A stretch of 64,000 nt of DNA from Auricularia sp. M13 (Eukaryota; Basidiomycota; Agaricomycetes; Auriculariales; Auriculariaceae), in NCBI GenBank assembly GCA_037042915.1, contig CM073201.1:3658001-3722000 (forward strand). The letters are read 5' to 3'. A program made the position numbers and the translations under genes. The notes under the pieces are model-generated. The model was not told the DNA's origin, ran no database searches, and worked only from the letters and a program-made list of their open reading frames with translations. Positions 24,901 to 44,800 of this stretch are shown in pieces. The first letter of the stretch is position 1, and each line of letters starts with the position of its first letter.

Positions 24901-27076
24901 TCCCCGGCGCGCCCCATTTCTTCTTCGTCTCCCGCCCGCTCGAACCCTCGTTTTTCGTCGGCGTGCGCGCGGGACACCCAGACCTTTCGACGCTCGCGGG
25001 CGGGCCCTGCAACGCGTTGCCCGTCGTTTGTCTACGTTTGCTTGCTGCCCGCGCCCGCCGTTCTGCCTTTATCACCCCCCCCCCCCCCGCGCACCCCCGG
25101 TCTGCCTTCAGCGTCGCACGCACTCGTCCATCCCTTCGTCCCCGTGCACCCGTTCTTCGCGCACATTCCTCCCCGCGCCGCGCGCAGGCGGCCGGGACAC
25201 CTGTGCGCGGATCGGCGTCCTTGACCTGTGCGAGGGCTGGTCATCGCGTGTCGTCGCCGCAGGAGCCCGCTCCGTGTGCGCTGCGCGACGGCGCCCATAA
25301 TCTTCGCGCGTGTTGGCATTCCGTACGCGGGCGTCGAGTGTTGCGGGCACTCCAGCGCGTTGAAGGCGCCTGGTCAAGCGCGCGGGCACTCCCTCCACCG
25401 CCTTGTGGGTACGCTGTCGAGTGGGTCGCGAGCTCGCCGTCGAACATATCGCGAGCCGTCTGTCTGACACGTTGGCGATACGTCGACCGCGTCGCGAACC
25501 TGCCACACAGCGCGTTCGAGCACTTTCGAGTGCGTCGGGGACACCCTGTCGAACGCGTCGCACCTACGCCATTGAGCGTTGCGGGCAGTTCATCGAGCGC
25601 GTTGTGGGAACGCAGTCAAGCGCATCGCGGGCACTCCGTGCATGCCACGGTCGAGCGCGTTCTCGTCAGCCCCGAACGCAGCGAGTCGCCCAGCTACCTC
25701 ATTTCCTGGACCTCCATCGACGCCCTAGCCGCCGTCGTCCAGCTCGCTGGCGCCGTTGGCGTGGTTCATCGTGGAGTTGAGTGCGTCGCAGGCGTCGAGC
25801 GCGCGGGCGCGCCTTCGAGCTCACAACGCCGTACAAGCCGTCTGTCGAGGGCGATGCTTGGTCGCGCGTCGCGATGGGCACTCTGCTGCTCTGCTTCCTC
25901 GGCGTCTTGCGCTGCATCCCTCGAGCCGCTCCAGTGCCGCTGCGCCATGAACGATGTTCTGAAGCGCGACACATGTGCGCCCCTGGACGCACGAGTCTGT
26001 TGTCGTTGGAGGCGGCACACTGGTAGCGCGCTTCATTCGAGCTTTGTCCACTTCAGAATGCTCTGTTCTTCTTTCTATCCCGCGCGCCGTCGTACCTTGC
26101 TCATCGGATTCCTGCAGCGATGGTCAAGTCGTCCGCTCTCATATTCGTGCTCGGCTTTGCCTTCCTCTTCAAGCTCGAGAAATACTCGCACCGACTCGTC
26201 TTCGTCATCGGGCTCATCACCATCGGCGTCTTCCTCATGACGTTCCAAACGACCGCGTATGCGTGGGGCGGCGTGGCGCTGGTGCTCGCGAGCTCCGCGC
26301 TGGCAGGCTTCCGGTGGTCCATGACGCAGCTGCTGCTACGCCGCTCTGACGTCGGGCTGGACAACCCGGCCGCAACGATCTTCTGGCTCTCGCCGCTGAT
26401 GGGCCTGACGCTCGCCATCGTCAGCCTGCCTGTGGACAACTGGCCGCGGATGTTCGCCGAGTCGCCGTTCTTCGCGACGTGGACGAGCACTCTGAAGACG
26501 GGCGCGATGCTCGGCCTGCCGGGCGCGCTGGCGTTCCTGATGGTCATGAGCGAGTTCTACCTCCTCCAGCGCGCGGGCATCGTCACGACGAGCATCGTCG
26601 GCATCTTCAAGGAGGTCGCGACGATTAGCCTGGGCGCATGGGTGTATGGCGATGTGGTCACGCCGCTCAAGGCGACGGGCATGGCGGTCACGCTGTGCGG
26701 CATTGCGATGTACAGCTACCATAAGTACCGCAAGAGCGTCGAGGGCGGCGGGGACGGGCATGGGCATGGGCATGGGCCGGCTACGCGCGAGGTGGGCGAG
26801 GAGGGGTATGCGCTCGTGCCGCCTAAGGAGGACGACGAGGTGTTTGCTGTTGGGGTCGACGACGACGACGATGAGCGCGAGGGTGGACGGAGAAGGCTGA
26901 GCGACGACGATGATGGGCATCTGGCGCGACATAGACGACACTCGCTCACTGAGGCGGAGGACGCGGATAGCTTGTTGGAGCATGTCCGCGACGGCGAGGA
27001 GGACGCGCGGAGCGTGCGCACGGTCAATACCGTCAACACGATCGGGAGCACCGCGCGGCTGTGGAGGGAGCGGTAG
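21979..27076 (+). CDS. TPT/SLC35C2-like (Ymd8-like) nucleotide-sugar transporter
   Basis: Five exons join in phase: 21979-22091, 23316-23412, 23957-24048, 24651-24739 and 26118-27076, giving 449 residues. The protein begins MALDALEVPEPSTGATLAER and has about ten hydrophobic helices, e.g. ILVNSVFVVAWFSFSALLLL, ATGLDIGLGNLSLKIITVSL, MVKSSALIFVLGFAFLFKLE. The DIGL-NLS, SLYTMVKSSA and FRWSMTQLLLRR motifs place it with DMT-superfamily TPT proteins related to human SLC35C2 and yeast YMD8, thought to work in the Golgi/early secretory pathway. The cytosolic tail of about 110 residues has an H-G-H-G-H-G stretch and Asp/Glu runs. Coding sequence is intact, but introns total 3,748 bp. The stop is at 27074-27076. 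Confidence 0.85.
22092..23315 (+). other. Transporter intron 1 (1,224 bp), repeat-filled
   Basis: Donor gtgagt at 22092, acceptor ctgcag ending 23315; splicing restores V-V-A-W-F-S-F-S. It is GC-rich with a 188-bp near-identical tandem duplication (listed separately) and many shorter degenerate copies of the same words. The overlapping frames of 300-360 residues within it are artefacts. Confidence 0.8.
22889..23240. repeat. 188-bp tandem duplication in transporter intron 1
   Basis: The block starting CTCCAACAGCTGCGCGCGCT at 22889 recurs at 23077 with few changes, then a partial third start near 23226. Period 188 bp. Lies entirely inside intron 1. Confidence 0.75.
23413..23956 (+). other. Transporter intron 2 (544 bp)
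   Basis: Donor gtgagc at 23413, acceptor cgcgcag ending 23956. CT-rich on the plus strand with degenerate 'CGCGCTGCTC' words. Splicing joins GTVVQ to MPIQFALASACRYL in phase. Confidence 0.75.
24049..24650 (+). other. Transporter intron 3 (602 bp), G/T-rich repeats
   Basis: Donor gtatgt at 24049, acceptor tttgtag ending 24650. Filled with loose repeats of the type GGCGTCGTCTGGCGCGTTTG (about 20-40 bp spacing) from 24110 to 24600. Confidence 0.75.
24740..26117 (+). other. Transporter intron 4 (1,378 bp), repeat-filled
   Basis: Donor gtgagt at 24740, acceptor cctgcag ending 26117; joins ITVSLY to TMVKSSALIF. It includes a run of 14 C at 25075-25088 and loose GCGGGCACTCC / CGTCGAGCGCG repeats from 25320 to 25830. 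Confidence 0.75.
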
Positions 27077-27411
27077 CGGCCCGCCGAGGCTCGGTCGCGG
27101 GCGCGAGAGCGACCCGGTCGAGCAGCAGCGACTTGGTCCACGGGGCGGCAGCTAGGGAGCGTCTGCCTTATTTTATTTCCTGTGCGTGCGCAAAGTATTG
27201 ATGAAGGCGGCGTGGATAGATAGAGGCTCGAACTGAATCTTGGGACGTGGTATCTTGTGCATTAGGACTTGTCATACTCATACATCCGCTCTTTCTTGCT
27301 TGCGTCTGACGCGGGGGACTCGCATTAAGGTGATTCTTCCTTGGCAACGGACGAGGCGCACGGCGTCTGGACTCTGCAGTGATTGTAGATGAATCAATGG
27401 TGGAGCCTGTG
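27077..27411. other. Convergent 3' region
   Basis: 335 bp between the transporter stop and the stop of the minus-strand Zn2Cys6 gene; presumably both 3' untranslated regions. No other gene seen. Confidence 0.4.
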
Positions 27412-28055
27412 TTACATTTGCGAGGGGTGTGCGGGGTCATCTAACATGAGCCAGGTGGACTCGAGCTGCGCGTAGGCAGCGTCTCCGGTGAAAAGCGGTG
27501 GGTATGGGTGGCTGTGGAAGGTGTGCGTGTCGTTCTGGGTAGGGAAAACAGGTATCCGAGGCAGGAAGAGATGCGGGTGGACGAGTAGGCTGGAGTTCTC
27601 GGTGAAGGGTTGCGCGAACAGCGGTTGGGTGCTGACGCCGTCGAGGAGCACGCCGTCTGGTGTTCTGGGAGGAGACTCCGTGTCAGCCTGCGATTCTGCA
27701 GCGCGGGAGGACTGTTGCTCGGTGAATCAGCGTCGGTGTGAACACGTCACGCGTGGCAGTTGATGTCGGCGGTACTCACCTGCCCCGACTCGCCGTTCGC
27801 GAGCAAAGCCTGCATTTTTGCAAGTGCTTCTCGCAGCTGCATATTCTCCTCCAGGAGCGACGGGCACTGCTGGCAGGCGGAGGTGCGCCCGGGGACCGTA
27901 CGACGGTCTTGTTCGGGGTTCCAGACGCACTGGGAACGACGCGTCTGGTTAGATACCACGCGAGTTTAGATATAGAAAGCGTACCTGCAGTCCTTTTGCG
28001 GCACACGCTGTGCATGTCCCAGAGAGAGGCCCGTTGCATTTGGACCCCTAGAAAA

Positions 28056-28266
28056 ACGTGCGCAGGGTGCGTGCGCACACGTGCGCAGAATTTTGCGTGC
28101 GCACAACTTGTGTGCGCAGTTTTCAAAATGCGTGCGCATGGTTTTCACTTGCGTGCGCAGGGTCCAAAACTCTGAGCGCACGCTTTTCCTCATGTGTGCG
28201 CAGGTCATGGGTGTGCGTGCGCAGGTCAGAAGTATGCGTGCGCAAGTCACAAGTATGCGTGCGCAA
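28056..28266. repeat. Left sub-terminal GCGTGCGCA array
   Basis: About ten copies of GCGTGCGCA or close variants (GTGTGCGCA, ACGTGCGCA, one inverted GCGCACGC near 28176), spaced about 18-24 bp, separated by AT-richer spacers. Likely transposase binding sites by analogy with other elements. Confidence 0.75.
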
Positions 28267-28618
28267 GTCTGGGGTTGCTAGTGTATTGTATTATTCTTGA
28301 TGGATAACACACATTCAAAGTCATTGGTATACTAAAGCTTATCTTATATTCAGCATACACATCAGAAGCCGCAAGTGTAATGAACTAGAAACCACGTTAC
28401 TGCCGAGGAAGTCATCGGCAGTGTGGATTACAGAGCTTGCAATGCATGTTAAAGTGATCAGTTGGAGATTACATTAGGCCCAAAGATTAATGCACACTAG
28501 ATATCACAAGTGTAATGAATTAGAAGTTGTGTTACACTCGAAGGTTAATGCACACTTGAAGTTGCAAATGTATTTGATTGCCAATTAACTTTCATCCATT
28601 CTTGCATCCCACAACAAG

Positions 28619-29218
28619 ATGACAGTAGCTGAAGCTTGGGATCAGTACCAAGTTCAGTATAAAGGTCCCAAGCAGCAGGTTGACCTGGACGTGTTTGTGT
28701 TGTCCATCCTAGAGGACTTGATGCTTGATCAGTCCTTTGACCTAGGCTTATCTGCTTTGTCACAATGGGGCCTTGATGCTGGTCACCACCAGCATCACTG
28801 GAATCCCTATGTGCATGGTCCAACAGAGGATAGACATGATGAAGCAGGATGGAACATAGAGTCTGAGGAATATGATTTGGCTATCACAGTAAGTCATTCA
28901 TTTTTTGCTTTGCAGAAGTTGATTCAAACACAACAATGCACAGCGTGGACCAGACTATAGGGAAGATTCACACAAAAGACCACCCACCCCCGAAATGTCA
29001 AATGCAGAAATGCGAGAAACACAAAGTCAAAAAAGGTTAAGTTTTTGGTGTCATCAAATTTAGCAAACTTACTGACCTGCTTTTACAGACAATTCTTTGC
29101 AGAAATGGAAATGGACGAGGAGGAACAGGAGCGGGCTGCAGCAAAGCGCCAGAAAAGCAAAACAGTGGCAGTTGCAACAAAGCCTGTCAAAAAACCAAAG
29201 ACACATAAAAGAAAGTAG
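28619..29218 (+). CDS. Small gene inside the mobile element, unknown
   Basis: An ATG at 28619 opens a frame (MTVAEAWDQYQVQYKGPKQQ) rich in Asp/Glu that stays open to 28957. A second protein-like exon follows an intron at about 29036-29087 and reads FFAEMEMDEEEQERAAAKRQ, then KSKTVAVATKPVKKPKTHKR, ending at a TAG at 29216-29218. How the middle part (28890-29030) is spliced is unclear because the frames change there. The basic Lys-rich tail could bind nucleic acid. No transposase or known domain is visible. Coding status is a reasoned guess. Confidence 0.4.
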
Positions 29219-29475
29219 CACTAGGTCTGATGTATATTCATGTTGAGATGCACTAATGTAATAACCACATGGGCTTTGCTTCATTGGAGATTAGTACTTA
29301 AGGGCTGGTCAACCAACTATAACTTTGGTAAACCAGACCTGTCTGTCAGAATGTAATGTTCTTGATAACGAACAAGACGTGAACTCAGAACATGTGATCC
29401 TTGTCCAGTAATTGAACACTCATTTATGAGGGGTGCATGTAGGCTTAAGAAGTGCTTGTGTACATTTCTTCAACA

Positions 29476-29885
29476 GCGTGCGCAAAGTCCAAGTGTGCGT
29501 GCGCAACAATTACGACTGCGTGCGCATGTTCCAACAGTGCGTGCGCAAGGTTCCAACTTGCATGCGCAGAGCGTGAGCATCTTTGCGCACACATTTCAAT
29601 AGCGTGCGCATCATGCAAACTTGCGTGCGCATACTTGCAACATGCGTGCGCAGTGCGTGCGCAGGCGCACATTAGTTTTGCACACGTGCGAGGTGCGCAC
29701 GCAAGTTGAAATGTGTATATCAACAATATCTCTGTGGATATTTAAGGTTTGATGACCGTTGTTGGATAATCACATGCAATGGTATGATAGCTACCACAAT
29801 CACCTTCAACGATGACAATATCTTATCTAAATGGGCTTCTATGGTTGAATTAATGTTGCGCACGCACCTTGCGCACGTGCGCACG
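29476..29885. repeat. Right sub-terminal GCGTGCGCA array
   Basis: About a dozen copies of GCGTGCGCA variants, mostly at 20-22 bp spacing, some inverted near the outer end. It mirrors the left array. Confidence 0.75.
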
Positions 29886-30063
29886 TTTTTCTCATGACCC
29901 GTTGCATTTGGTCTTTCTGCCGAACGAGGGGGTACAGTAGTTCAGAGCTATCCGCTGTGAGATTGGAGGAAACTGCGTACTTGGTGCGGCAGCTCATGCA
30001 CGCGCTCGAGGTGTGTCTGTTTTTCCTCCTGTTGTGACTGGAGGGCTGGGTGTGTGCGGACAT

Positions 30064-41850: not shown

Positions 41851-44800
41851 ATGACCAACAACCCACCAAATGTTGTGGACGTTGATACCATGTCATTGAT
41901 GATCACCCGGGTCACCCAGATGACAGATGCTCGAGGCTTGTGCAAGCATTGGAAGGTGGGTCGGTTCTACATTTTGCTGGGATGCCTGACGACGCATTGG
42001 CAGCCATTGCTTGCAGAGGAAGGCTTAAAAATAATCCCCACGTCACGCCTCGCTCCACAGGAGGCATCCGAAGTTTATGACGTGTAGCCCTAGTTTTTTT
42101 TCTTCTGCAAGGTTGCATAAACTGAAATTCTAGCTTAGGCTTTGCGCCTTTTCAAGGCTGAAGGTCTCTCCAGCACACTTGACATGGCCTCCTCCGACAG
42201 GCTTCTCGAGGTTGCGCAATCCGGCCGTCGGCTGCTGGTTCAACGCCCTCGTCCAATGCTTGTCGGCTTGTGTGCCCCTGAGAGTCGGCCTGCATGAGCT
42301 CAAGGAAGAAGACAGGATGGCAAGAAATATAACGTGCCTAATTGACCGCAGCATCCCGCTGCACGATGCACTCGTGCTTGACTGGCCGCCTCCAGAGGCC
42401 TTTTTGCACAGTTGTGGCCTTGGTACGCTGCTCTGGCTGAAGGCGGTTCGCTCATCTTAGCCTTTCAAGGCCGAATCCACCAGATGCTAGGAAGCAACCA
42501 GCAGCAGGACGTGCGGGAGGCCTTTGAGGTCTTTTCGGAGCTCTGAGGTCCGCAGAGAATCTCCGTTGCCTTCTTTGTTACTCACGTCTCGCAGAAAATG
42601 CGGCGCGGAGGAATCCACACCTGCTTCTATGTTCGAGGCCCAATACATAGAAGCTGAGATATGTGGACAGAAACATGTTGCCGCCCTGTCGACCGTAAAG
42701 GAAACGCTGTTCACGATCCAAGTACGTCGTGCAACGCCATTCAACGATTTGGACGCCACCGTCCTCGACATGGGCGAAAGTTGTTCCGTTGCGTAAGTTC
42801 AATATACCATCTAATGAGTTCCATTGATGGGCACACTCTCAGAAACTGCGGCGGGCCGAAATACAAGATACGCCTGGTGTCGAAGCCTCCCCAAATCCTC
42901 GTCATAGATGTGATTCGCAACGTCGGGAACAGGAAAGACTCCTCGCAACTGGAATTCATCTCTGATCTCGATAACATCATAATCCCCTCGGTAAGCATGT
43001 CCCGTATCTGCCACCGTGGTCTCTGAGCTGGTTAGGTGGACGGACACTACCGGGCATTTGCTGTTGCAAATCATGCTGGCCCAACGGTGGCCGCAGGACA
43101 CTGGACTGCACACGTTCACAAAGGTCCAGATTGGATTCTCCTGGATGACGCAGAGCGTGCCAAGGCCGTACAGCCTGCCAAGGTCCTCAAGGATGCAGGC
43201 ATGTTGTTCTGCATAGCTGACAGAACGGTGAGGCCAAATATGTTCTTCCTAGCAAATGCTGACCGATTCAGGCCTTGGACAGTCGGATTCCCGCACTTGC
43301 TGAACTGAGCCTCCCAAATCAGAAGTCAACCAGGAAGCGACCTAGGCGCGTTTCGGAAATAACAGCTGACCCAGCCCTTCAACTTGGTAATCGCGGTTCC
43401 AATCATCATCTGCCATCTAACAGGCTTCAGGATTGAGAGAACTGGATGATATACAAGCAAAAGAAAAATCTAGAACGACGGCGTTGCGTAAAGATCAAGC
43501 GGCAGGTAATCCACTATTGCGTCCTCGTTGTCGCTAGCTGATAATTGTCCAAATTTCAGTGCTCATCCAGCTGCGAACACATCGGCAAGTCACCGTACAG
43601 GTCTCTCCCGGCTTAAACGTTGCAAAAAGTAAGGAATAGACCATACTAGCAGAATTCCAAACGTCTGAAAGACCACAGTTTTACCCGAGAATCACGGTTT
43701 CACACGTGTTATTTTCGTACACGATTCGGCTGAAGGTCTACTGGCGCCTCCTGGCGGAATGCACAACATGCTAGACTGGGAGATCCTGAGATTCAAGAGG
43801 GAAATGGGCGATTACTGCTTTGTGTTGGACCGCACAGTGGAGCGCCCGTTGAACCCTCTCATCATTTCCACACTGGGCGAAAGCTTCAGAATCGATGTGG
43901 TCACAGGCCCTACGAACGAACCATCGTTGAATTTCGAGGCGTTCATATGTCCCCAGACAATATCGCCTGTACGACTGCCCTTCACTGGGATTAGCTCCAT
44001 CCTCTCTGGGCTCCAAAAAATCGTTGAAGCAGGGAACCGTGGACCTATTCTTGTTGTCGCAGAGAGTGAGTGATATTGACCTATGTTTCCGCTGCGCAGA
44101 ATTCAGTCTTTGACAGATTGGCCCATGGTTGTCATTTTAAGCCAATACGTGGAACGGCTGTATTTTCGCGATATGGGCCTCAGATTCTTATTGCCGTCCG
44201 CTACTATGATGGAGGTCGACAAAGGAAAAGGCCAAATCTGCATACTGGCCACTGCCTCCACATTGTCCTTTCACCAGTTCGAGCTCCCGGAAGTGGCGCA
44301 CGTGATAGCACCAGATGGCTTCCTGAGCCCTTTTTGCATTAAGGTGCGCTTCTCGTGTGACCATTGGGCCGCTTGTGATTGAACGTGCAGTCGAACGGCA
44401 CCCTGCATGCGTATTCCCGAGAAGCACCTGTAGACTCTGACTTCATTCCTTCGGCTTTTCTGCTTGAAGCAGCCGATCTGTGCAGGGATCAGCCCCTTTC
44501 TCAAGTTATCTCGACAATGGCACCTACTTCAGCCTGTGGGTTCTGTGGTCTCACTGGGATGAGATCGCTCATCACAAACCTAGGGCTACATGCCGCCGAA
44601 GAATACATCAAATGGCAGGGGAGCCGGGCTAAGGTTGACACACCATTTATATGCTTTCCACCGGAACTTTCGGCCGCCTATAACGCTTTACGACGACGTT
44701 CGCCCGGGCCGCGGGAACTCGGACTCTACATTCTTTCGCTCAAAGCATCGTTCTCTGCATTACAGTCCTGGGCGACTGTCCCGGCGTGCATGGGCATGTT

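Follow-up and report, generated by a model that had tools for sequence, protein, structure and literature searches.

Mutator-type transposons (MULEs) leave target duplications of about 8-11 bp, usually 9 bp, and their transposases are built on a D-D-E core with a C-x2-H motif between the second D and the E. Non-autonomous deletion derivatives and insertion in genes are general features of the group, and the Kaonashi-type MULEs of plants reportedly contain a ubiquitin-like-protease domain. In maize, Mu generates 9-bp duplications (PMC2774946). Rehavkus is described with duplications of the same length, a transposase that has a PHD finger and, ahead of the 3′ terminal repeat, a minisatellite; the group is reported there only from arthropods and annelids (PMC6446971). 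Transposon-borne deubiquitinases are described in VTD/OTU-carrying Helitrons, where they have been suggested to protect transposition proteins from degradation (PMC9741609). For fungi, the accessible text of a paper on TET-carrying transposons does not contain the terms "9-bp", "protease", "PHD" or "GCM" (PMC12730594).

Here we analyze a 64,000-nucleotide stretch (C9:3658001-3722000, the window) of the 52.1-Mb genome of Auricularia sp. M13, which is assembled in 14 contigs (C numbers). In the window, a 1.86-kb insert interrupts a gene for a Zn2Cys6 regulator. Comparison with the rest of the genome indicates that the insert is very probably an internally deleted, non-autonomous copy of a large cut-and-paste transposon that makes 9-bp duplications.

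Results

An earlier note, made from the letters of the window, had described a mobile element with a 15-bp inverted repeat at its ends, flanked by a 14-bp direct repeat. Both repeats are present: CCCGTTGCATTTGG, the direct repeat, spans 28030-28043 and 29898-29911, and AGAAAAACGTGCGCA, the inverted repeat, spans 28050-28064 and 29878-29892. When the locus was compared with other genomic copies, however, the true ends proved to be 8 bp outside those first given, at the left as well as at the right. The element as defined by the ends common to other copies is 1,859 bp long and occupies 28042-29900, on the plus strand as judged by the reading direction of a transposase remnant. It begins with GGACCCCTAGAAAAACGTGCGCA and finishes with TGCGCACGTTTTTCTCATGACCC, the outermost letters being GGACCCCT on the left and CATGACCC on the right. 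The left terminal inverted repeat (28042-28064, plus strand) is GGACCCCTAGAAAAACGTGCGCA, of which the inner 15 bp equal the right end and the outer 8 bp do so partly; the right terminal repeat (29878-29900) reads GGGTCATGAGAAAAACGTGCGCA on the minus strand. Flanking these ends is a target duplication of 9 bp, GTTGCATTT, at 28033-28041 and 29901-29909, its extent set by the same comparison. The 14-bp repeat consists of CCC, GTTGCATTT and GG, and the CCC and GG match the ends of the element itself: the CCC belongs to the flank on the left and to the element on the right, and the GG the other way round. The five extra bases of the direct repeat are thus matches between flank and element end. Wherever a copy has a duplication (16 of 25), its length is 9 bp, and the argument for novelty from an unusually long duplication falls away, as 9 bp is usual for Mutator-type elements.

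Inside each terminal repeat is an array of GCGTGCGCA/GTGCGCA motifs, often spaced 21 bp apart, at 28065-28268 on the left and 29476-29710 on the right. The density of these arrays, noticed earlier, is borne out by counts on both strands, with GCGTGCGCA occurring 17 times in the element and 5 times in the remaining 62 kb of the window. Two lone GCGTGCGCA motifs lie outside the element at 27010-27195, on the 3′ side of the Zn2Cys6 gene.

The interrupted gene is on the minus strand. Our model has exon 1 at 29981-30063; a 5′ part of exon 2 at 29901-29916, which ends in the 9-bp duplication after cysteine 3; a 3′ part of exon 2 at 27985-28032, with cysteines 4 and 5; exon 3 at 27780-27929, with cysteine 6; and exon 4 with the stop codon at 27412-27711. 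As previously proposed, the insert separates two cysteines of the regulator, namely cysteines 3 and 4. Removal of the insert and one repeat restores a C-x2-C-x6-C-x7-C-x2-C-x6-C cluster, and the restored protein matches Pfam Zn_clus at E=1.7e-7; the predicted length of 187 codons was not reproduced, the frame having 198 codons plus stop. On entering the insert the frame of the gene reads KCNGS and then meets a stop, which is the third codon of the insert, and the insert has 27-30 stops per frame on the strand of the gene. From this reading, the stop three residues past cysteine 3 should destroy this copy of the gene. A paralogue near a contig end (C7:46503-47278) aligns in four collinear pieces (59-69% identity): two are strong matches, with E=5.7e-33 and 3.9e-15, and the other two, with E=0.0068 and 0.038, are weak. 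The exon interrupted in the window is uninterrupted in the paralogue, the piece in question being the weakest (E=0.038).

The sequence is repeated across the genome. The exact 15-bp terminal motif has 36 matches, compared with 0 for a reversed control pattern, and 19-bp ends with at most 3 mismatches give 52 matches for one end (control 6) and 66 for the other (control 7). The 19-bp matches take in a second, sister subfamily in which GAAAACCGTG replaces GAAAAACGTG. BLAST with the element returns at least 54 genomic matches, fragments counted, with 40 of 94 candidates scored. Copies with the same ends, which the earlier note had asked for, were therefore found. An exact 9-bp duplication flanks 9 of 16 two-ended copies of the window family (none in 7) and 7 of the 9 copies of the second subfamily whose ends were checked (none in 2), so that overall 16/25 have exactly 9 bp, 9/25 have none, and no other length occurs. 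Thirteen short copies besides that of the window were aligned: nine are 97.0-97.6% identical to it, L025 is 90.1% identical, and L009, L026 and L031 are more distant (69.6-73.6%). Two pairs are near-identical, L027/L028 (99.6%) and L029/L030 (99.9%). Since L027 and L028 carry different duplications, at least one of them seems to have moved recently. L029 has a duplication and L030 does not, a contrast that suggests rearrangement. The second subfamily has the ends GGACCCCTAGAAAACCGTG and GGGTCACGAGAAAACCGTG, often with about 1.65-1.7 kb between them, as in C2:3571963-3573650 (L049-L050) and C7:2757989-2759656 (L055-L056). Three matches to KDZ (Kyakuja-Dileera-Zisupton) transposases lie within 1-1.4 kb of members of this subfamily (C10:1809699, C7:3299619 and C1:2336489). 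Short introns, a Zn2Cys6 gene and the at least 149 KDZ matches of the genome together point to an agaricomycete-like fungus.

A much larger copy at C6:1499341-1512331 has both ends of the window family, with one mismatch in the left end, and is 94-96% identical to the window element across the shared parts. C6 positions 1499836 and 1511034 are adjacent in the window element, with an exact junction between 28598 and 28599, where the C6 copy has 11,197 bp more, nested insert included. Given this exact junction and the shared ends, the short copies of the window type are very likely to be internal deletions of a C6-like parent. By tblastn, the C6 copy matches a related transposase from C9 (described below) in pieces that are 25-44% identical and span residues 117 to 1511, apart from 609-744, and so encodes a relative of it along most of its length. 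A nested element, whose 481-bp direct repeats are 98.75% identical, interrupts the C6 copy. The reading frames of this copy are broken, and its flanks show no target duplication by eye. The only close match to its transposase is C6 itself, the next matches in the genome being at most 57% identical. Because this copy is broken and has no second, no working source with window-family ends was found in the assembly. The expectation of an autonomous partner elsewhere thus held as far as a coding partner with the same ends is concerned, but not for a working one.

Three other candidates were set aside. The ends at C6:330168-345361 (L017-L018, 15.2 kb) have a 9-bp duplication and enclose a short element in which a LINE-like retroelement, identified by eye through its reading frames, is nested. 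Two ends 21 kb apart on C5 have flanks that, by eye, do not match. A 7.6-kb element on C7 has the same ends, no duplication, and homology to the transposase only in the C-terminal exons.

The earlier note had also seen no transposase in the insert. None is complete, but the last transposase exons are retained from 28619-28890 on. This first interval, on the plus strand, is a C-terminal exon encoding P0001 (90 aa), which tblastn aligns with residues 1413-1511 of the spliced C9-family protein (63.6% identity, 99 columns) and which has no Pfam match at E<1. The last exons and stop codon follow on the same strand at 28947-29218, with borders drawn from the C6 and C9 comparison and splice sites set by eye. 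A genome-wide search with P0001 gives 20 matches. Thirteen are family copies with 93-100% identity, the one in the window among them; two are fragments (81 and 90%), and the other five are loci with 66% identity.

Among these 66% loci, the one on C9 (L035+L034) is an element of 7.8 kb that has ends of its own and GACGCGC arrays analogous to the GCGTGCGCA arrays of the window family. In this sister family a 9-bp duplication was present in both copies whose two ends were read (C9 and C7), the left border having been set with the duplication in view. The left ends of the copies on C4, C5 and C6 (L043, L040 and L041) were not found in the small stretches examined. On splicing, the C9 copy gives a frame of 1,588 residues that is open from the stop codon before it; exon borders were placed by eye and the start codon was left unset. 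A core exon of 320 residues is present in three of the five copies (C9, C4 and C7) and is 98-100% identical among them. The lineage of these transposases includes a third family, with L045 (C8:1655200-1663900), C11:1078577 and L065 (C2). It is 38% identical in the core exon and has the protease-like motifs discussed below; the match scores of C8 and C11 are identical, and no element ends were found for any of the three. In viral contigs, relatives were confirmed for neither of two alignments.

In the three aligned transposases (C9, C8 and C6, the last pieced together across broken frames), D125, D198, C238/H241 and E333 are invariant, giving the D-D-CxxH-E arrangement of MULEs in 3/3 sequences. 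There is also a region in which NSC, a cysteine pair, P..L, H and YD are likewise invariant in 3/3 sequences, with exon joins made by eye. In motif order, this succession of Cys box, cysteine pair, P..L, His box and Asp resembles a USP-type protease. An exon-by-exon search with PF00443 (UCH/USP) at E up to 10 gave 38 matches elsewhere and none at these transposase loci, and a PDB profile search with the region gave 0 matches. The N-terminal part of C6 has a GCM-like match (E=0.053), and a PHD-like match occurs in a C9 exon (E=0.045) and in C6 (E=0.31), the latter two short of the Pfam cut-off and all three at noise level; GCM and PHD are absent from a scan of the whole C9 protein at E<1. In the scan that gave the C6 matches, an unrelated family scored E=0.0071, and the GCM and PHD labels therefore reflect position and motif rather than score. 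No Pfam model reaches its cut-off with these transposases, nor does any transposase model match the whole C9 protein at E<1. The MULE model PF10551 matches 6 places in the genome, none of them at the C6, C9, C8, C11 or C2 transposases. In hhalign comparisons with the MULEs of this genome, the matches were weak (P-values of 0.014 and 0.16, and 0.016 for all together), to be read beside a MULE-versus-MULE positive control that itself gave 0.31. The alignment weakly pairs the E motif with the one in a canonical MULE from the same genome, in a comparison that is underpowered, as its control fails too.

Discussion

The earlier proposal of a mobile, non-autonomous DNA element agrees with the shared ends, the further copies, the 9-bp duplications and the larger coding partner. 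With terminal inverted repeats, a duplication of fixed length, several copies and no complete transposase, the insert has the makeup of a non-autonomous cut-and-paste transposon. The shared ends, the 9-bp duplications at different sites and the exact deletion junction against C6 can be read directly from the DNA. Building on these, we propose that the partner transposase would bind the GCGTGCGCA arrays and terminal repeats, that its D-D-E core, of RNase H type, would cut the element out, and that the short element would have been inserted in trans, by cut and paste, into the Zn2Cys6 gene, whose frame would from then on stop three residues past cysteine 3.

Could the insert instead be an ancient intron of the gene? 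In its favor, the exons on either side are still open, yet the same sequence occurs elsewhere with different 9-bp duplications, and the C7 paralogue lacks it, albeit in a short piece that is weak by itself. We consider an intron wholly implausible, and neither outcome that the earlier note had named as refuting its reading was obtained. Only slightly less remote is a small self-sufficient element moved by its own short protein. The P0001 reading frame is retained in many copies, but P0001 corresponds only to the C-terminal part of the large transposase, and of the 13 family copies, 3 contain stops within the matched part and 5 are matched for only part of the length. We therefore favor an internally deleted copy moved by a larger partner.

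As to what that partner is, both the length of the duplications (exactly 9 bp in 16 of 25 copies, none at the C6 partner) and the D-D-CxxH-E pattern are Mutator-type features, and we think it probable that the transposase lineage is divergent Mutator-type (MULE/Rehavkus-like). A derivation from KDZ elements, which are abundant in the genome with at least 149 matches to PF18758, appears very improbable: among the 149 matches listed, from 150 of 163 candidates scored, none is in the C6, C9, C8, C11 or C2 transposases, and Zisupton duplications are 8 bp (PMC12730594) rather than the 9 bp found here. A more serious competitor, although we still judge it unlikely, is a separate, undescribed superfamily of 9-bp-duplicating transposons outside the MULEs. 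It would account for the C9 protein escaping every Pfam transposase model at E<1 when PF10551 and PF18758 do match elsewhere in this genome, and for a combination of DDE core and protease-like region that is absent from the accessible text of the literature searched. Against it are the 9-bp duplication, the D-D-CxxH-E pattern and the weak hhalign pairing of the E motif. For the window element itself, we keep to a description as a non-autonomous DNA transposon that works like Mutator-type elements, without a firm MULE assignment.

Within the Mutator-type reading, the closest systems differ from these elements in several respects. MULE/MuDR elements share with them the 9-bp duplications, the D-D-E pattern, the deletion derivatives and the insertion in genes. 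In contrast, the present families are missed by PF10551, have short terminal repeats (a 15-bp identical inner part) accompanied by motif arrays, and carry a fused region with protease-like motifs. Compared with the description of Rehavkus, the 9-bp duplications are alike, whereas the PHD-like finger here is a weak match, the arrays are at both ends and the host is a fungus. Kaonashi-type MULEs resemble them in joining a transposon to a cysteine-protease domain of the ubiquitin world, and differ in that the motif order here is nearer to USP than to ULP. The VTD/OTU Helitrons offer a likeness in their deubiquitinase, but are rolling-circle elements with another protease class.

To judge from their motifs, these transposases probably have a fused region of USP-like protease type and may have GCM-like and PHD-like fingers. 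The fullest version, a single long protein with a GCM-type finger, D-D-E core, deubiquitinase-like cysteine protease and PHD reader in an undescribed fungal lineage of 9-bp-duplicating transposons, we put forward tentatively and at somewhat less than even chance; it is rated lower because the GCM and PHD matches were no stronger than an unrelated one in the same scan. By undescribed we mean that no Pfam model reaches its cut-off and that no account was met in the literature searched.

The short element is by itself ordinary, a gene-breaking, non-autonomous transposon, and the partner family matters more. Its type of transposase escapes current Pfam models, yet one such family is represented in this genome by five related copies, all of which would go unnoticed in a Pfam-based annotation. 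If the protease-like region is confirmed, fungal cut-and-paste elements would join the transposons that seem to carry a ubiquitin-handling enzyme, and the role of such a domain could be tested in a simple two-part assay. If the four-part protein is real, the element may resist ubiquitin-dependent removal of its transposase and read host chromatin. Apart from these transposase loci, the window has at 42388-43209 (C9:3700388-3701209) a match to the ubiquitin-protease family PF00443.
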